Part shown: piece after piece, positions 13,025 through 28,673 of the stretch | Numbering within the stretch: the first letter of the stretch is position 1 | How the letters are laid out: every line of letters starts with the position of its first letter | Source: a virus | Virus record (IMG/VR): IMGVR_UViG_3300028800_000005 | Location: 1-64,000 of that record | Strand: one strand, 5' to 3' | DNA length: 64,000 nt | Notes under the pieces: model-generated | Seen by the model: only the letters and a program-made list of their open reading frames with translations | What the model was told of the DNA's origin: nothing | Databases searched by the model: none | Translations under genes and position numbers: made by a program

Positions 13025-13173
13025 AGGCGGGTCCGGACTCAGTGTTCATGAACTGTCCTTTCTGCGGGAAGATAATGTTCTTCAAGACGTTCCACATGCG
13101 CCAGCACGTCCGGCGCATCGTCCTGATGGCCCGCTGGTACACCACGAACAAGATGCCAGGCACCAATGGCTGA
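13021..13173 (+). CDS. 50-residue C2H2-like zinc-finger protein
   Basis: This short gene lies between two overlapping neighbours (ATGA at the start, ATGGCTGA at the end). It encodes C12-x2-C15 followed by nine residues and H25-x3-H29, the spacing of a classical C2H2 finger, then a basic helix (RRIVLMARWY). Single fingers of this kind bind DNA or mediate protein contacts. Too short for family assignment, but the spacing and coupled translation make it plausible as a real gene. Confidence 0.6.
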   Translation: MKAGPDSVFMNCPFCGKIMFFKTFHMRQHVRRIVLMARWYTTNKMPGTNG

Positions 13174-13798
13174 GGTTACAAAGAGCTGCTACACCTGCAA
13201 GCAGGATAAGCCCTTGTCGGACTACCAGAAAAACAAGGCTAAGAAAGACGGCCTGGAGCATCGCTGCCGCGCATGCAATAATGCTCGCATCCGAGCTGCG
13301 TATGCCAAGGACCCAGCTAAGAAGATTGCCGCCACACGCCAGTATCATTTGGATCACCCAGAGTGGTCCAAGACAGTACTACGTGAGTGGCACGAGCAGA
13401 ACGCTGAACGACGTTACCAGGAATATCTGGAGCGGGGCAAAGACCCCGAAGTTGCTGCTAAGCGCCGGGACGCCTCACGCCGGAGTGAATCCAGGCGGCG
13501 TGCCTTGATGGCTGGCGGCACCCTAGTAGATCACATTTCATCAGACGACCTTGATAGGGTTCTAGTAGAATACCAAGGGCGTTGCTGGATTTGTCACGTC
13601 GACCTGGCAACTGTTGACCTTCATTGGGACCACTATAAGCCTCTGGCGAAGGGCGGTGAGCACACGTTGGCTAACCTACGGCCTTCGTGTTCCGACTGCA
13701 ACGTCAGAAAGAATAGTATCTGGCCATTGACCGAGGAGCGTCTAGACGCAATTCGGCGCGCGGTGGGAATACTGCGCGAACCTAAGGAGGTGATGTAA
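13166..13798 (+). CDS. HNH endonuclease (second, probable homing type)
   Basis: This 210-residue protein starts with a CYTC...CRAC zinc-ribbon-like region, passes through a highly basic helix (residues about 45-120), and ends with an HNH nuclease: GRCWICHVDL, DLHWDHYKPLAKGG and LANLRPSCSDCNVRKNS. The bipartite layout parallels the HNH gene after terL, though the cores differ in type (WDHYKP here versus AADHDH there). It lies immediately before the portal gene, whose AAGGAGGTGA ribosome site begins within this coding region. Placement beside an essential gene fits homing behaviour. Confidence 0.88.
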   Translation: MAEVTKSCYTCKQDKPLSDYQKNKAKKDGLEHRCRACNNARIRAAYAKDPAKKIAATRQYHLDHPEWSKTVLREWHEQNAERRYQEYLERGKDPEVAAKRRDASRRSESRRRALMAGGTLVDHISSDDLDRVLVEYQGRCWICHVDLATVDLHWDHYKPLAKGGEHTLANLRPSCSDCNVRKNSIWPLTEERLDAIRRAVGILREPKEVM

Positions 13799-16543: not shown

Positions 16544-17545
16544 ATGGCAGGAAGTGCCATCGTCGGGACTAACTTTCTAGCTGCGGCTCCGACCGCCTAT
16601 CAGGGCGCGAACACCCAGCTTACCCCGGCCATTCAGACTTTGTGGTCCAAGGAAATCCTTTTCCAGGCCATGCCCATTCTGCGCTTCGAGCAGTTTGCGA
16701 TCAAGAAGACGGAGCTTAACCAGGCTCCCGGGACCACGATTAACTTCATGCGCTACAATAACCTGCCTGCGGCTTCGCAGCTCGTTGAAGGCGTCCGCAT
16801 GGAGACGACCCCGCTTACCGCGTCGCAGTTCTCGATCACCGTTGCTGAGCACGGCATGGCCGTCGCCACGACCGAGTTCCTCCTGAATGCCTCGTTCGAC
16901 GACGTCATGGCGTCGGCGGCCCGGCTTCTCGGCCGGAACATGGCCCTGTACCTGGACGCGTCCGCGCGGGACACCCTGCTGCAGGCCAGCTCGATCCTGT
17001 ACGGCTACAACAAGCCCGCTCTTGCCGGTAACATCCGGTCGGACCTGGCCCCCTACTCGCACGGCGTGCCCGCTGCGAACCGCGCGGCTCTCTCGGCCGG
17101 TAACTTCGCTCTTACGACCGCCATGGTCAAGGACGCGGTCCTGACCCTGGAGTCGAAGAACACGCCTCACCTTGGCGACGTTTACCCGACCTTCATCCAC
17201 CCGGCGCAGTCGCGGCAGCTTCGTGACGACCCCGAGTTCATCGAGGTCTCGAAGTACTCCCAGCCGGGTAGCTTCATGCTCGGTGAAATTGGCAGGTACA
17301 ACGACGCGGTCTTTATCACCACGACCCAGGTCGCTCCGAACTACGTCTCCGGCAGCTCCGGCGCGCAGTACCACGACGGCATCATGATCGGTGACAACGC
17401 CTTCGGACATGCCATCTCATTGCCGGTCGAACTTCGCGATTCGGGCATCTTGGACTATGGCCGTGAGCACGGCCTGGCCTGGTACGGGATCTGGGGCTTC
17501 GGCCTCATTACCGACCAGAGCGTCGTCATTCTGGAAACCAACTGA
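16544..17545 (+). CDS. Major capsid protein
   Basis: This 333-residue protein follows the scaffold, the normal order for capsid genes. It has an N-arm with QTLWSKEILFQAMPILRFEQFA, an internal AEHGMAVATTEFLLNASFDDV segment, a long helix (RLLGRNMALYLDASARDTLL), and a C-terminal HGLAWYGIWGFGLITD strand set. These resemble the N4 gp56/HK97-fold group of actinophage capsids. CAAGGGAGTGACAC supplies the ribosome site. A strong terminator follows, so abundant capsid mRNA probably ends here. Confidence 0.9.
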   Translation: MAGSAIVGTNFLAAAPTAYQGANTQLTPAIQTLWSKEILFQAMPILRFEQFAIKKTELNQAPGTTINFMRYNNLPAASQLVEGVRMETTPLTASQFSITVAEHGMAVATTEFLLNASFDDVMASAARLLGRNMALYLDASARDTLLQASSILYGYNKPALAGNIRSDLAPYSHGVPAANRAALSAGNFALTTAMVKDAVLTLESKNTPHLGDVYPTFIHPAQSRQLRDDPEFIEVSKYSQPGSFMLGEIGRYNDAVFITTTQVAPNYVSGSSGAQYHDGIMIGDNAFGHAISLPVELRDSGILDYGREHGLAWYGIWGFGLITDQSVVILETN

Positions 17546-19334: not shown

Positions 19335-22300
19335 GTGTCGACCACTGTCACCTGGAGTACCCCCGGGACATACACCTGGACCTGCCCTGCGCACGTCAAC
19401 GCCGGGTCAATCACTGTCTGGGGTTCCGGCGCAGGCTCAGAGCCAGGGAGCGGTACCTACCCTGGTTACAGCGGTGGCGGTGGTCAGTGCACCGGGTACA
19501 GTTCCTATCCTTTGGTACCTGGTCAGAATTACACGATTATCGTCGGAGTTGGCGGTTCTGCCGGTACCCTTACAGCAGAACCCACTAACGGTAACAGCAG
19601 CGTATTTGACTCCGGGGGAGCACCTGGCGGCGTGCACGCCTCCGGTGGTGGTTCAGGAGGATCATTCTTTGTCGGGGGCAGTGGTACCCCTGCCGGACTG
19701 CACACGTTCTTCTATTCCGGTGGTAACGGAAGCGGTGGCGGGTCCTCCGGGTACGGTGGTGCTTCGGGGGGTAACTCCGGGTGCCCGACCGCCGCCGGGA
19801 ACGCCGGTAGCAGTGCGAGTAGCTCTACTGGCGCATCTGCCCCGGCCGCACAAACTGGTGCAGGTACAGGTGGTGCGGGCGGTTACGGTAACGGATTCAC
19901 CGGGGGGGCCCCGGGCGGCGGTGCCGGTTCTGGTGGCGGGCACGGTGGAACGGGCGCTGTGGGTGGTGCCGGGCAGGTCCAGGTAACGTACACGCTGCTT
20001 ACCGGTGTAACCGTAAGCCAGTCCACAACCTGGAATGTCATAGGCCGTGTTACGTCCAGCGAGGCGGTCGCCTGGGACACGGACGCGACTAACTCGTCCA
20101 GCAATGTTGCTACCGCATGGGAATCCTTCCAGGGTGTAGCGGTAAGTAGTGCGGTCGCCTGGAACACGGACGTATCTACCTCGTCCAGTAATGTTTCGGC
20201 AGGGTGGAATACCCGGGTCGCAGCCAGTCGTAGTGTATCGTCCTCCTGGCAGTCAGAGTACGCCACGCCGGTATCCGGCAGCACGTCCTGGAATACCTGC
20301 AAGCTGGTACCAAAGCAAGCGTCGACCGCATGGGAAACCACAACCACAGTTACCACCAGCAAGTCGAGCACCTGGAACACACCCACAACTGAGGCGAGCC
20401 AGAAGCCTGTAGCATGGGCGTCTCTAGTTTTCGTATCGGCGTCTAAGGCCACAGCCTGGAACTCGTACACACCCGTTTCGGTAACGAAGAATAGTACCTG
20501 GTACTCCCGGAGTTCCGTCGCGGTAATCCCGCAAACCACATGGAACGCGGAAACAACTAAGGTAAGTGCCAAGTCCACGACATGGAACGATGCGGCATAC
20601 GCCTCAAGCTCGAAGGTTCTGAACTGGAACGCACGGGCGTCCGTATCCTCCACTAAGGCAGTTAACTGGAACGCGTACCTTCCCGTGTCCAAGTCGGCCG
20701 CTACGTCCTGGGTTACGGCCAAGCAAATCCGCCCGGGAGTTCAGCTTACCTGGAACGCGCTGTTCCCGGGAGGTGTCTCCGCGCAGGCCAGCACATCCTG
20801 GATTGCACGGACGCTTATCAGCCCGACCGCAGGCATTACGTGGAACACGGGCAGCAACCTGACAACCATAAATAAAACGCAGGGCCTGTCCTGGAAGTCG
20901 ACCACAACCATCCCCTCAACGGCTACGACCCTATGGCAGACGGAGATCGCCGGAGGGGTCGTCGTTTCACAGGGCCTGTCCTGGGAGACGATGCTGTCCG
21001 GGTCATCCACGACCAGCTCGTCCTGGAACCAGTTCCAGGGCGGGAACCCGTCTGTTGCCACAAGCTGGAATTCCATCCAGTCCGTAAGTACTACACGGCG
21101 CTCCACCTGGAATTCCATGAGCGCTGTGTCCTGGGGGCATAGCTCGTGCTGGTGGAATGACCTGTCCCCTGTGCCGTCCACGAAGGCAACCTCCTGGAGA
21201 ACCCCCGGGTATGTTACGCGCCGTGCAGGGATCGCATGGACGGACGCTGGAAAGAACTCGGCCACAACTGGTATCCGGTGGAACACTACGGCACCAGTGC
21301 GCGCGTCGAACCCGAACACTATCTGGTGGAGGTCCGACCAGAGCCGGTCAAGCACGAAGCAGGTCTTGTGGTTCAGCAATGGTGAGCTTATTATCCTGGT
21401 ACAGGACGTGAAATGGCTGACCAAGGCAAGCCGGAGCGCGGCACACGCCGTAACCTGGCACGTTCGGACGCCCGTCACCTCCAGCGAGGATTCCGGGTGG
21501 CATGTCTGGATTCCCGGAACTATCTCCAAGCGTTCCCGCTGGCGCAGCCTGGTGCGTGTGTCTCCCACCGCGCGTATCCTCTGGCAGTCCCGGAGAGCCA
21601 CGGTAACGGACGATACCGTTTCCTGGAATGCCCGGCACTCCCAGCAGCGATCGGCGTCCCTGCGTTGGGCTGTGCGCCGCGCAGTGCAGGTTCAGAAGGC
21701 TGCCGCATGGAAGCTGTACACGACCTACTACGTCGTTAGCACTTCCAAGCGGTCGACCTGGAATGATTTCCGCTACGCGCATTCCACTGCCCGCGTAAAG
21801 TGGAACGTCCAGATCACCCCGGTTGCCGTAACCCATTCGGTCAAGTGGAACACGCACCTGGCCGTACATAAGACCGTCCCGGCCGAGTGGCACGTCCAGA
21901 TCATTCCGGTTACGGTCTCTCGTGCGGTAAAGTGGAACACGCGTATTCCGGTAACTATTTCGAAGCCGGTCAAGTGGAACGTCAAGATCATCCCGGTAAC
22001 CGTATCCAAGGGTGTAAAGTGGAATTCACTTGTACCGGTAGCGGTTACTCACGCAACCCAGTGGAACGTTCCCCGGGCTCCAGTTACCACGACCGTACGG
22101 TGGAAGTCCAGGGCACGATTGGCATCCTCTCCGGCCCTGTCCTGGAGGTCCCGGAAGACAATCCATGTCCCGGCACAGATCCGGTGGGACAACCCGGTCA
22201 CCCCGGTGACGGTAACGCGCGCAGTGGCATGGAAGTCACTGGCCAAGCGGTCCTCCTCACGTTCCGAGCGGTGGGGTTCCCTGCGTACTCGGCAGTCTCG

Positions 22301-22577
22301 TAAGTATCTTGCCTGGACGGTACTGGTCTACGGCGCGGGATCGTCTAGCGAATTCGCCTGGGAAACAATGAAGCGCGCGTCGCACTCAGGGAGTTTCCGG
22401 TGGAATGTGCCGACCGGGTCGTCCCATGGTGATCCCGCGTGGCGCGTTATACGCTGGAATGACTTCATGTCCAGTACCCCGGTTACTTCCTCGGCTACAA
22501 TGGAATGGACGACCAAGCGAACTATCCCTGGCGGGATAATGATCTCAGGCTCAGACCGCTGGCAAAGCGCGCAGTAG
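19335..22577 (+). CDS. Glycine-rich and tryptophan tetradecapeptide-repeat protein
   Basis: This 1080-residue protein starts at GTG with AGGAGAG upstream. Residues 1-225 form a Gly-rich domain opening with VTWSTPGTYTWTCP, like the glycine-rich adhesin tips of phage tails. From about 228 to the end there are about 58 consecutive Trp-ended units. By hand count roughly two thirds are exactly 14 residues and most others 13-17. A typical unit is NTRIPVTISKPVKW: W-N/K-S/T at the boundary, a hydrophobic residue near position 6, Ser/Thr around 8-9, and V-x-W at the end. Early units are Ser/Thr-rich, later units Lys/Arg-rich. The regularity suggests a beta-solenoid or stacked-strand fibre. No catalytic motif is visible. 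It lies between decoration and neck genes; four similar units occur in the gene at 44349. Confidence 0.85.
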   Translation: MSTTVTWSTPGTYTWTCPAHVNAGSITVWGSGAGSEPGSGTYPGYSGGGGQCTGYSSYPLVPGQNYTIIVGVGGSAGTLTAEPTNGNSSVFDSGGAPGGVHASGGGSGGSFFVGGSGTPAGLHTFFYSGGNGSGGGSSGYGGASGGNSGCPTAAGNAGSSASSSTGASAPAAQTGAGTGGAGGYGNGFTGGAPGGGAGSGGGHGGTGAVGGAGQVQVTYTLLTGVTVSQSTTWNVIGRVTSSEAVAWDTDATNSSSNVATAWESFQGVAVSSAVAWNTDVSTSSSNVSAGWNTRVAASRSVSSSWQSEYATPVSGSTSWNTCKLVPKQASTAWETTTTVTTSKSSTWNTPTTEASQKPVAWASLVFVSASKATAWNSYTPVSVTKNSTWYSRSSVAVIPQTTWNAETTKVSAKSTTWNDAAYASSSKVLNWNARASVSSTKAVNWNAYLPVSKSAATSWVTAKQIRPGVQLTWNALFPGGVSAQASTSWIARTLISPTAGITWNTGSNLTTINKTQGLSWKSTTTIPSTATTLWQTEIAGGVVVSQGLSWETMLSGSSTTSSSWNQFQGGNPSVATSWNSIQSVSTTRRSTWNSMSAVSWGHSSCWWNDLSPVPSTKATSWRTPGYVTRRAGIAWTDAGKNSATTGIRWNTTAPVRASNPNTIWWRSDQSRSSTKQVLWFSNGELIILVQDVKWLTKASRSAAHAVTWHVRTPVTSSEDSGWHVWIPGTISKRSRWRSLVRVSPTARILWQSRRATVTDDTVSWNARHSQQRSASLRWAVRRAVQVQKAAAWKLYTTYYVVSTSKRSTWNDFRYAHSTARVKWNVQITPVAVTHSVKWNTHLAVHKTVPAEWHVQIIPVTVSRAVKWNTRIPVTISKPVKWNVKIIPVTVSKGVKWNSLVPVAVTHATQWNVPRAPVTTTVRWKSRARLASSPALSWRSRKTIHVPAQIRWDNPVTPVTVTRAVAWKSLAKRSSSRSERWGSLRTRQSRKYLAWTVLVYGAGSSSEFAWETMKRASHSGSFRWNVPTGSSHGDPAWRVIRWNDFMSSTPVTSSATMEWTTKRTIPGGIMISGSDRWQSAQ

Positions 22578-22586
22578 GGTGACCAC

Positions 22587-23402
22587 ATGCAATTGACAGA
22601 CATGCTTTCCCGTATACGGATGGAGATCGGGGACCTTCCTAAGCCTTTCCGTTCCCTGTTCCAGGGCGACGGGCAGACGGTCCTGACTGACCTTATCCAG
22701 CCGAACGTAAACGCTATCGGGTTCTCCATTGACGTCGCGGACTCAATTGGTAACCTGACTACCCTGACTCCAGTTACCGATTACACGGTCGACGAGGACA
22801 ACGGGATCATCACCTTTGCCACTCCCGTTGCCGCCGGGTCGACGGCGATCATCTCCGGAACGAGCAACGGGATGTTCACGGATAATTCGCTGCTGGTCCC
22901 GATCCGGGACGCGGTCATATGGCACTGCCATAACCGGAAGCTCAATGAACGGTACCGTGACCGGCACGGGTTCATCACCTACCGCGAGACTCCTATCGGG
23001 CTGCGCAACCTTCCGCCGGAAGAGGAGCTTCCCCTAGTCGTCCTGGCGACGTATAACACCTACTGGATGCTCGCTGACGACATGGCCCTGGACGTCAATG
23101 TCCAGACCGCCGAGTCAACTAGCATTGACCGGTCCACCAGGTACCGCCAGGTCATGGAGCACATCTCTGAGCTTGACGCCAGGTACAAGTCCCTGACCAG
23201 CCTGCTTAACATCGGGCCTAACCGGATTTACTGCACGGACCTCCGGCGTACCTCGTACACCACCGGCCGCCTGGTCCCGCTGTTCCAGGCCCGGGAATAT
23301 GATGACCACCGCTATCCTGTCCGGTTGATTCCCCCGATCGACAGCTCATACGCGGATAACTCCGGGGTCCCGTCACAGCTTTTTTACGGCGCGGGCCTTT
23401 AA
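22587..23402 (+). CDS. Neck/connector-region protein
   Basis: This 271-residue protein starts with LTDMLSRIRMEIGD, an amphipathic helix often seen at the start of head-tail connector proteins, then has a beta domain with a V-x-DYTVDEDNGIITF strand pair, and a helical second half (LPLVVLATYNTYWMLADDMALD, MEHISELDARYKSLTSLL). It sits between capsid-associated genes and the tail genes, where adaptor proteins are expected. Homology was not tested. Confidence 0.6.
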   Translation: MQLTDMLSRIRMEIGDLPKPFRSLFQGDGQTVLTDLIQPNVNAIGFSIDVADSIGNLTTLTPVTDYTVDEDNGIITFATPVAAGSTAIISGTSNGMFTDNSLLVPIRDAVIWHCHNRKLNERYRDRHGFITYRETPIGLRNLPPEEELPLVVLATYNTYWMLADDMALDVNVQTAESTSIDRSTRYRQVMEHISELDARYKSLTSLLNIGPNRIYCTDLRRTSYTTGRLVPLFQAREYDDHRYPVRLIPPIDSSYADNSGVPSQLFYGAGL

Positions 23403-23429: not shown

Positions 23430-24176
23430 ATGAAAAAGGTCAGGGCTTACTGGTGGCGCGGGAACCCATCCCATCCGGTTAAGAACTTCGGGGACGCGCT
23501 ATCGCCGTACCTGCTCAAGAGGTTCGCGGACATCCGGACAGCATGGTCACCAGTATCCCATTCGAATGTCGTCTCCATCGGGTCACTGCTAGAGCATGTG
23601 CCGCCCTTGTGGGACGGGCATATTCTCGGCACCGGGAAGCTCTACGAGGACTCGCGGCTGCACCTCCACACGAACACGGCCAAGATATGGGCCCTGCGCG
23701 GCCCGCTGACGGCCCGCTGCGTCCCGGGGGACTATGCCCTGGGTGATCCTGGCCTGCTTGCCGATGAACTCGTCACCGTCGATCACAGGGACGTCGGCCT
23801 GGGTATCGTCGCGCACTGGACAGACAGCACCCTGGCTAAGCGGCCAGAGTTCTACAGCCGCGACTTCGAGACCATGGTGATCGACGTCGCCGGGGACCCT
23901 CTCGATGTCGTGCGCTCTATCGGTCGCTGCCAGAAGATCGTCACCAGTTCACTGCACGGCCTGGTCGTAGCGGACGCCTTTGGCATCCCCCGCCGGTACG
24001 AGATGATCCCGAACGCAAGCCGGTACGAGGGGGGCCTGTTCAAGATCAGGGATTACAGCGCCTCAATACAGGCTCCGTTCGAGCCGGGTAAACTGATAGA
24101 AGCATCGCGGTTCTACGTCGAGGACCGCAAGTTTGAGATCTGGGATGCCTACAGGGCAATGGGGGCCGCACTATGA
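23430..24176 (+). CDS. Polysaccharide pyruvyltransferase-like protein
   Basis: This 248-residue protein carries the landmarks of the polysaccharide pyruvyl transferase superfamily (CsaB/WcaK type), which adds ketal pyruvate from phosphoenolpyruvate to sugars. They are NFGDALSPYLL (19-29), SIGSLLEH (49-56), ALRGPLTAR (88-96), the LGDPGLL motif (104-110), and TSSLHGLVVADAFGIP (172-187) with the characteristic Ser-x-His. It is somewhat shorter than many members (about 300 residues or more). The stop overlaps the next start, so it is coupled to a glycosyltransferase. The pair may build or modify a glycan on virion proteins or alter host surface sugars. Its place inside a neck gene cluster is unusual. 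Confidence 0.82.
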   Translation: MKKVRAYWWRGNPSHPVKNFGDALSPYLLKRFADIRTAWSPVSHSNVVSIGSLLEHVPPLWDGHILGTGKLYEDSRLHLHTNTAKIWALRGPLTARCVPGDYALGDPGLLADELVTVDHRDVGLGIVAHWTDSTLAKRPEFYSRDFETMVIDVAGDPLDVVRSIGRCQKIVTSSLHGLVVADAFGIPRRYEMIPNASRYEGGLFKIRDYSASIQAPFEPGKLIEASRFYVEDRKFEIWDAYRAMGAAL

Positions 24177-24970
24177 ACATCCTTCTGAAGCACGGTAAGC
24201 GTGCCAGGCACGGTCGGGGCATCTCACTGCTCATTCCTTTCCGGGCGGAAGAGGACAGCCCGAGGTTCAGGGCGTTCGAATGGACGATACGATACTATGC
24301 CTCCCACCTACCGGGCGCGGAGATCATCGTCGGCACCGATGACAGCCTTCCGTTCAGTAAGACCAAGGCCTTTAACCATGCCAGGGAAAGGGCTACCGGT
24401 GACGTCCTCGTCCTTATCGACGCCGACTGCTATATCGATACCGACGTTCTCCTGCACTGCGCTAAGGAAATCCGGCGCGAGCGGAAGAGGGGCTACCGGC
24501 TATGGTACATTCCCTACCGCAGGTTCTACCGGCTCACCGAAGAGGCAACGCGCCGCGTCCTGAAGTCTAACCCCAGGGACCCGCTGCGGTTCCCGACGCC
24601 TCCGTCCGAGAAGGACACGGAAGCACACTCCTCGGCGTCGCGCGGCCACTGGTGGGGCGCGCTTATCCAGGTAATGCCGAGTGAGGCTTACGACATGGTC
24701 GGCGGCTGTGACCCGAGGTTCCGTGGATGGGGTGGCGAGGACGTCGCCTTCATGCGCGCGGTCGACACCCTGTACTGCAAGCACAAGACGACACGGAACC
24801 AGGTGCTCCACCTGTGGCACCCGATGATCAAGACCGAGTGGAACCTCAGGATGTGGGACGGCCAGCTAAGTGCCAAGGACAATGACCGGCTGGCGAACAG
24901 GTACTACGCGGCATTCGGTGACCCGAAGCGAATGCGGAATCTCGTCGGAGAATACCGGGAGGTTGAATGA
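24173..24970 (+). CDS. GT-A fold glycosyltransferase (family 2-like)
   Basis: This 265-residue enzyme has the GT-A nucleotide-sugar fold: SLLIPFRAEED (18-28), an IIVGTDD strand (51-57), FSKTKAFNHARERATGDVLVLIDAD ending in the metal-binding DAD (83-85), and a C-terminal GGCDPRFRGWGGEDVAF block (near 178-194), as in galactosyl- and N-acetylgalactosaminyltransferase domains. Acceptor and donor cannot be read from sequence. It overlaps the pyruvyltransferase-like gene (ATGA) and the next gene. Together the pair probably makes a modified sugar decoration. Confidence 0.88.
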   Translation: MNILLKHGKRARHGRGISLLIPFRAEEDSPRFRAFEWTIRYYASHLPGAEIIVGTDDSLPFSKTKAFNHARERATGDVLVLIDADCYIDTDVLLHCAKEIRRERKRGYRLWYIPYRRFYRLTEEATRRVLKSNPRDPLRFPTPPSEKDTEAHSSASRGHWWGALIQVMPSEAYDMVGGCDPRFRGWGGEDVAFMRAVDTLYCKHKTTRNQVLHLWHPMIKTEWNLRMWDGQLSAKDNDRLANRYYAAFGDPKRMRNLVGEYREVE

Positions 24971-25491
24971 GTCGAATAGATTACCACCGGGGCAGGGCGA
25001 ACTCCGACTTCGAGACGGTCCAGCTCTCTAATGCCATGCGCGGGTGGAAGTCGAACTATGGTGACTTCATCGACTACTACCGGCTTGACCCGGACAGCAC
25101 GCAGTATGATGACGTCTACGAAGAGGTTCTCGCCGGGGGAAGAAAGTACCTCCCGGTAATACGACTCGGCTGCCTGCACGTCACACTGATCCAGGGTGCG
25201 AATGACTGGGACGACAAGGGCTTCTACTACAACGACAACGTGCGCGCCATCGTGCCTTATGACGTCTACACCGGATCGGGAATGGCCCTGGCCGACATGG
25301 ACACCGGTAAGTACGAGCTAGACCGGATCGTCTACAAGCAGAAGGTATTCAAGGTCGTTCAGATTGACGTCCGGGGGCAGATCGTCGAGCGCCCGAATGT
25401 TGTCGCGATCGACGCGACACAGCTTAAGCCGGACGAGCTTCACGAGGACCCGCTTATGGCGGTTTACGGTGAAGGTAACCTCGCCCCGTAG
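24967..25491 (+). CDS. Neck/head-completion-type protein
   Basis: This 174-residue protein is rich in Asp and Tyr. The C-terminal half has beta segments (YELDRIVYKQKVFKVVQIDVRGQIVERPNVVAIDATQL), and the N-terminal half is helical with NYGDFIDYYRLDP. Its size and position upstream of the sheath match head-closure or tail-completion proteins. Its start overlaps the glycosyltransferase stop. Family not identified by motif. Confidence 0.6.
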   Translation: MSRIDYHRGRANSDFETVQLSNAMRGWKSNYGDFIDYYRLDPDSTQYDDVYEEVLAGGRKYLPVIRLGCLHVTLIQGANDWDDKGFYYNDNVRAIVPYDVYTGSGMALADMDTGKYELDRIVYKQKVFKVVQIDVRGQIVERPNVVAIDATQLKPDELHEDPLMAVYGEGNLAP

Positions 25492-28118: not shown

Positions 28119-28673
28119 ATGACCATCACGCAGAAGTCTTCACTTTCGAGCCCTGCCACCGACCCTCTTCGGAACTTCAAGTGGCAGCTCATTTTCCGAC
28201 CGGCCTCCGGGACGGCAACGACCATGATGGCGATGACCCTCGGCGGTCTTTCGGGAACCATCGACACCATCCCGTACCGTGAGGGCGGGTATAACACGGT
28301 CACCCAGAAGATGCCGGGGCAGGCGGACTTCGGTCCCCTGACCATTACCAAGGGCGTCATGGTTGGCCCGCAATTCCAGATCGACTGGTTCAAGAAGATG
28401 TTCACCGTCCTTCAGGGAACGGGTACGCAGGCGGCCGGTGACGACTTCCGGTACACGGTTGACGTCCTGGTTATCGACCACCCGGTTACCACGGACCAGG
28501 CCCCGGTCAAGGCGGCGTTCACCATTTACCGCGCGTGGCCGACTGCCCTGGCGTTCGGGGACCTGGACGCTGGTGCGAACCAGCTCCTGATTTCCCAGAT
28601 GACCCTGGCTCACGAGGGCTTTACTCCCGACGTCGCGGCGGATATCGGGAACTCCGAGGCCACCTACTCCTGA
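28119..28673 (+). CDS. Tail tube protein
   Basis: This 184-residue protein follows the sheath, the standard order. It has NFKWQLIFRPASGTATTMMAM, IDTIPYREGGYNTVTQKMPGQADFGPLTITKGV (about 48-80) and a late FTIYRAWPTALAFGDLDAGANQLLISQMTLAHEGF strand set, as in the gp19/T4-type tube family. It forms stacked hexamers as the DNA conduit. The start has GGGAGAG upstream. Confidence 0.93.
   Translation: MTITQKSSLSSPATDPLRNFKWQLIFRPASGTATTMMAMTLGGLSGTIDTIPYREGGYNTVTQKMPGQADFGPLTITKGVMVGPQFQIDWFKKMFTVLQGTGTQAAGDDFRYTVDVLVIDHPVTTDQAPVKAAFTIYRAWPTALAFGDLDAGANQLLISQMTLAHEGFTPDVAADIGNSEATYS

Follow-up and report, generated by a model that had tools for sequence, protein, structure and literature searches.

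Phage modification of glycans is known mainly in the form of single glycosyltransferases or GtrABC cassettes, and bacterial pyruvyltransferases meet lipid-linked saccharides at the inner membrane face, before export. Within the PF04230 superfamily, of which few members have been tested so far, Pvg1p pyruvylates galactose, the sugar most often pyruvylated on record (PMC6801904), and CsaB requires R148 and H308 for its activity (PMC10435577). Phage adsorption is conditioned by pyruvylated wall polymers, as csaB mutants show (PMC9703825), and in a cell infected by T5 the phage protein Llp blocks the receptor that T5 itself uses (PMC4728585). Virion glycosylation by phage glycosyltransferases is described, in a passage of PMC11256854 that cites Freeman 2023, for mycobacteriophages such as Che8. 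In the literature that we searched, we found neither a phage-made pyruvylated glycan nor a gene pair of the kind described below, and no papers joining a pyruvyl transferase with viral auxiliary genes.

The window, by which we mean the whole stretch of 64,000 nucleotides of viral DNA analysed here, carries two overlapping genes on the plus strand. ORF 1 (23430-24176) encodes a pyruvyl transferase-like protein of 248 aa, a compact, Pvg1p/ExoV-like form of PF04230, and ORF 2 (24173-24970) encodes a GT-A glycosyltransferase of GT7 type with 265 aa. The stop of ORF 1 and the start of ORF 2 share an ATGA (24173..24176), and a second ATGA (24967..24970) joins the stop of ORF 2 to the start of a third ORF; both ORFs and the overlap between them, which the first-pass annotation had reported, are borne out by the sequence. 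The pair belongs to a block of late genes that all run in one direction, with head genes on one side of it and tail-sheath genes on the other. The head side includes the portal (13964; PF05133/phrog_64), the major capsid protein, so named by position and without a family match here (16544-17545), a head-fibre-like gene (18147), and a gene for a repeat protein of 1080 aa (19335-22577); the other side includes the tail sheath (26553; phrog_23) and the tail tube (28119-28673; PF06841). Two conserved proteins flank the slot that holds the pair, both encoded on the plus strand and both identified by synteny. The upstream one (22587..23402), syntenic in L004, L020, L069 and L072, has a position that suggests neck or head completion, and the downstream one (24967..25491) a position that suggests neck or tail completion. 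The pair had been placed among neck and tail-completion genes; this wording does not stand as a family assignment, given that neither Pfam nor PHROG has a model that the proteins at 22587, 24967, 25591 and 25779 match at E<0.01, and 'neck' is a label that we infer from gene order alone. Only 27 bases separate the stop of the 22587-23402 gene from ORF 1, there is little room for a promoter of the pair's own, and a promoter and terminator scan of the region gave results near chance.

Several other features of the window deserve mention. The 1080-aa protein, directly 5' of the neck slot, combines a glycine-rich domain (PF21722) with dozens of tryptophan-containing repeats, and it diverges fast among relatives (37% in L004). 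Two tail-tube-like genes are present in some relatives (L069 7987-9121; L072 6153-8312), where the window shows one. At 598-2112 there is an AAA ATPase with proteasomal-ATPase OB domains (PF16450, PF17758; Mpa/ARC-like; 52% in L053), which is unusual in a phage and gives a hint of an actinobacterial host. The window has no tRNA, so that source of a host clue is absent there.

ORF 1 exceeds the Pfam gathering score for PF04230 (28.4 versus 25.3 bits), and all 37 aligned relatives match this family at E<0.01. PHROGs have no family for the protein, NCBIfam and PADLOC returned no useful match, and a sequence search of PDB chains with the pyruvyl transferase (PPT) profile found nothing meaningful. 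The AlphaFold2 (AF2) model has a pLDDT of 94.4, and its top PDB match by Foldseek is Pvg1p (5ax7, E 1.8e-4, probability 1.0), with a VIA Z of 10.9 and an rmsd of 4.4 over 203 residues. That Z is tied with those of epimerases, GT-B enzymes and other two-domain Rossmann-type enzymes, so the fold alone leaves the reaction of ORF 1 undecided. Two residues, R90 (in RGPL) and H176 (in SSLHG), are invariant in 37/37 relatives; H129 is invariant as well, and K205 is near-invariant, kept in all 36 relatives that cover the position. R90 and H176 appear to correspond to R148 and H308 of CsaB, a correspondence drawn from the motifs. The closest viral fold matches of the model in BFVD are giant-virus proteins (Mimivirus LCMiAC02, Pithovirus LCPAC101, Klosneuvirus KNV1), some of them long multi-domain proteins.

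ORF 2 passes PF10111, PF00535 and PF02709, the last at 23.2 versus 23 bits, and it matches phrog_1721, 'galactosyl transferase', at 2.4e-19. PF02709 is found at E<0.01 in 30 of the 31 relatives. The motif residues are D83xD85, W186-G-G-E189-D190, H213 and H216; the DxD, the W-G-x-E-D and the two histidines are invariant in all 31 glycosyltransferases. The AF2 model (pLDDT 89.7) superposes on beta-1,4-galactosyltransferase 1 (b4GalT1) with a VIA Z of 15.8 and an rmsd of 2.8 over 190 residues, and it also matches heparosan synthase 2 (Z 16.4) and chondroitin polymerase (15.8). For both proteins, the predicted fold and the active-site residues agree with the enzyme classes named in the first-pass annotation, pyruvyl transferase-like and GT-A glycosyltransferase. 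To make a pyruvylated hexose cap would take just such neighbours as are predicted here, one enzyme like beta-1,4-GalT and one like Pvg1p. Among the relatives, the glycosyltransferase of L028 (11483-13477) carries an in-frame insert of about 340-350 aa, intein-like, just before the catalytic GWGGED motif, and several others (L010, L028, L001) have histidine-rich C-terminal tails.

The two genes are strictly linked. Scans of viral contigs collected 41 with a relative of ORF 1 (48-100% identical), and in all 41 a homologue of ORF 2 follows 3' on the same strand, with a gap of about 100 bases or less except in L028, where an HNH gene lies between. In each of 21 virus records the glycosyltransferase family is present in one copy (the L028 copy split by its insert), and taxa that are far apart in one of the two proteins tend to be far apart in the other (correlation of distances r = 0.86, 29 taxa, Mantel p 0.0002). 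These close relatives are metagenomic viral contigs, many of them fragments, with two exceptions. One is Tunturi_5 (PP885688), a jumbo phage of Tunturiibacter, Acidobacteriota (PMC11924767), in which the pair is gp300-gp301, both annotated 'galactosyl transferase'. The other is L064, the one close relative of ORF 1 obtained from 84,980 prokaryote genomes, where it stands without a partner; the same scan gave one remote relative. That scan used the same profile, by way of two peptide patterns, and the claim of phage-specificity is based on it. The lone bacterial gene (L064 7367-8221) sits among chromosomal-looking genes in an Actinomycetota palsa MAG. Checked for the unrelated superfamily members that had been raised as a concern, the phylogeny gave the pair a clade of its own, almost purely of phages, with the catalytic residues invariant. 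A remote version is present in the marine contigs L058-L060, in which a GT7-like domain is fused to a domain that reads as GT10-type, directly before a pyruvyl transferase of 29% identity; the association of glycosyltransferase and pyruvyl transferase therefore predates this clade. In L058 (4508-7735), a glycosyltransferase-like protein, the fusion of GT7-like and GT10-type fucosyltransferase domains, and the pyruvyl transferase stand in a row.

Both genes are real and constrained, since dN/dS between the window and L004, a relative of 78% identity, is 0.17 in each. The flanking genes have values of 0.09-0.10 in the same comparison; the pair is functional and under purifying selection, evolving slightly faster than its neighbours. 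In GC and GC3 the pair resembles its flanks, and thus nothing indicates that it came in recently from a host with a different base composition.

The carriers belong to unrelated soil phages, and the pair often lies within the blocks of their virion genes. The window and the relatives L024, L047 and L053 have a phrog_2 terminase and a phrog_64 portal, L026 a phrog_38 terminase and a phrog_332 portal, L036 a phrog_9 terminase and a phrog_12 portal, and L042 a phrog_213 portal and a phrog_207 protease, while in jumbo-phage carriers the surroundings of the pair have no recognisable structural genes. Among 27 carrier records, which include short fragments, just 4 contain the window's terminase. In both gene trees the window, L004 and L020 are joined with L021, L022 and L009 (98/97 and 100/100), and L053, L024 and L047, which have the window's type of terminase, fall outside that group. 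The pair thus moves as a unit, both trees grouping the window's pair with pairs of unrelated phages. Even within the window's phage group the pair varies in place, being found in the neck slot, on either side of the terminase or in front of the portal, and in L072 and L069, which have the same flanking genes, the neck slot is taken by HNH genes and the pair is absent. The significance first attached to a location among neck genes is not supported by these observations, together with the pairs lying near terminase, portal and protease genes or in non-structural regions; the conserved feature is the pair, not its neck location. Near the pair in several jumbo phages there are relatives of a protein of L034 (14855-16426) that joins a pyrophosphatase-like domain (PF18823) to a RelA/SpoT domain (PF04607).

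The original idea of a modified glycan, made for the virion or altering a host surface polymer, gains from these results a candidate pathway: predicted folds, active-site residues, strict linkage and purifying selection support two enzymes acting on one glycan. We consider it probable that the pair is a phage-specific, horizontally moved two-enzyme module that makes a pyruvate-capped hexose, on either the envelope of the infected cell or the virion. Our more specific proposal, which we hold tentatively, is a mobile glycan-capping module that acts on a host envelope glycan and works against re-adsorption or superinfection. An N-terminal anchor, or else a basic N-terminus, would keep the GT7-like glycosyltransferase at the cytoplasmic membrane, on its inner face, and the enzyme would transfer a single sugar (probably galactose, GalNAc or one like them) from a nucleotide sugar of the host. 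The acceptor would be a host glycan intermediate, most likely lipid-linked, destined for the cell envelope. Next, with phosphoenolpyruvate, the partner encoded by ORF 1 would close a pyruvate ketal on the added sugar, leaving an acidic cap. With late expression, the surface polymer of the infected cell would be altered before lysis, and progeny might re-adsorb less to the cell and its debris, or superinfection might be reduced. A late-expressed module could therefore serve the same purpose as T5 Llp by another route. The reaction, the order of its steps, the sugar, the lipid-linked acceptor and the purpose are what we infer from the genes.

Evidence on the side of the membrane comes from the N-termini of the glycosyltransferases. 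A hydrophobic N-terminal stretch is present in 13 of 31 against 11% of the other ORFs at the same loci, with a p of 9e-6 that is nominal and too small, because we set the starts manually and all 31 sequences share ancestry. The stretch is usually followed by basic residues, as in L020, L024, L053, L045 and Tunturi_5 (the last when a start 5' of the annotated one is used). The remaining glycosyltransferases, the window's included, have mostly a short, basic N-terminus; the hydrophobic anchor is absent from those of the window, L004, L022 and L009, and from those of the two actinobacteriophages examined. As read from their sequences, the N-termini suggest work at the inner membrane face, and they favour a membrane-side acceptor, such as a host envelope glycan, over a virion protein. 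ORF 2 is the sole PF00535 match in the window's record, which also lacks matches to PF00534 and GtrA; the host must thus supply the donor, the acceptor and the export. The pair is accompanied by neither a flippase gene nor an export gene, and its make-up is not that of a GtrAB-type seroconversion cassette, the GtrA flippase (PF04138) having no match in any of the 21 carrier records.

These N-termini also bear on the main alternative, in which the sugar is placed on the capsid, head fibre or tail tube and then capped with pyruvate, giving the particle an acidic coat. In four head modules unrelated to one another the pair is surrounded by terminase, portal or protease genes or by genes in the neck position, which fits modification of the virion equally well as modification of the envelope. 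The window's pair is, moreover, translationally coupled to the next late gene, the nearest named PHROG is 'galactosyl transferase' with matches in actinobacteriophages, and Che8 offers a precedent in the passage cited above (PMC11256854, citing Freeman 2023). Nevertheless, hydrophobic anchors in many relatives would be odd for an enzyme of cytosolic virion proteins, the pair lies outside recognisable structural genes in the jumbo phages and Tunturi_5, and no one structural protein adjoins it across all carriers. We regard virion glycosylation as a serious but somewhat doubtful possibility. The 1080-aa protein was rejected as sole target, since L072 has a relative of it with no pair nearby.

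The proposed envelope cap and a virion coat both take ORF 1 to be a pyruvyl transferase. It might instead be a divergent member of the GT-B-type enzymes, such as another glycosyltransferase, and the product a disaccharide or some other modification. The PF04230 match of the window's protein is limited to the C-terminal motif, GT-B glycosyltransferases and UDP-GlcNAc 2-epimerases appear among the fold matches with similar Z, and the superfamily is sparsely tested (PMC6801904). This assignment is nonetheless unlikely, with Pvg1p ranked first by Foldseek and the Arg and His required in CsaB kept by motif in 37/37.

A different question is whether the glycan benefits the phage at all. HNH endonuclease genes (PF01844) are found in L020 (4193-4795), L028 (10750-11481), L047 (11302-11877), L072 (1539-2114) and the window (13166-13798). 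Those that adjoin or interrupt the pair in L020, L028 and L047 are of one family, which makes homing-type mobility a fair guess, and in L072 the same place in the neck is occupied by an HNH gene alone. Selfish or neutral cargo, carried by HNH endonucleases and making a glycan of no benefit, would account for this arrangement, yet it is very unlikely, for the dN/dS of 0.17, the invariant active sites and a pairing that persists across 50% divergence would not be seen unless function were selected for. That the glycosyltransferase decorates a hypermodified base of the phage DNA is extremely improbable: phage glycosyltransferases on hydroxymethylated bases are well known, and T4 AGT is among the lower-ranked fold matches of the ORF 1 model, but none of 21 carriers has a match to the thymidylate synthase/hydroxymethylase superfamily, and the membrane anchors, late-gene location and GT7-like fold speak against it. 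A defence system was rejected, there being no PADLOC match, as was lysogenic conversion as the main use, the window's record (possibly incomplete) having no PF00589 or PF00239 match.

That no fewer than five unrelated lineages of phages carry this fixed pair, which bacterial genomes hardly contain, points to a recurrent benefit of an acidic cap, which, if the proposed capping is right, could act somewhat like sialic acid. Short phage PF04230 proteins, annotated 'galactosyl transferase' or left unannotated, deserve attention. An isolate of Tunturi_5 and its Tunturiibacter host exist, and the acceptor can therefore be found directly.

Compared with known systems, ORF 1 is most like Pvg1p, the galactose ketal-pyruvyltransferase of Schizosaccharomyces pombe, in its best PDB fold match, its PF04230 type and, by motif, the Arg and His of the PEP site. 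Pvg1p acts on galactose placed by a galactosyltransferase, an arrangement to which we liken the predicted activities of the phage pair; however, Pvg1p is a larger, Golgi membrane enzyme, whereas ORF 1 has 248 aa, no membrane segment and 11-13% identity to it. The bacterial ketal-pyruvyltransferases CsaB, ExoV and GumL are of the same superfamily. CsaB has 396 aa and an Arg before its Leu-His (R306, H308), whereas the phage clade is short, almost only in phages, and reads S-S-L-H. ORF 2 shares the GT-A fold (Z ~16), DxD, WGGED and PF02709 with GT7 beta-1,4-galactosyltransferases and the chondroitin and heparosan synthases, but at 12-17% identity, and its family has a single small domain with a variable N-terminal anchor. 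The actinobacteriophage galactosyl transferases of phrog_1721 are homologous to ORF 2 at ~25-30% identity, and they, like Che8-type virion glycosylation, share with the pair a phage-encoded glycan modification; at the two loci viewed they have no annotated pyruvyl transferase partner. The closest likeness is Tunturi_5 gp300-gp301, the same pair in the same order, 54% and 48% identical to the window's proteins, lying in a non-structural region of a 309-kb jumbo phage, unlike the late block of the window.
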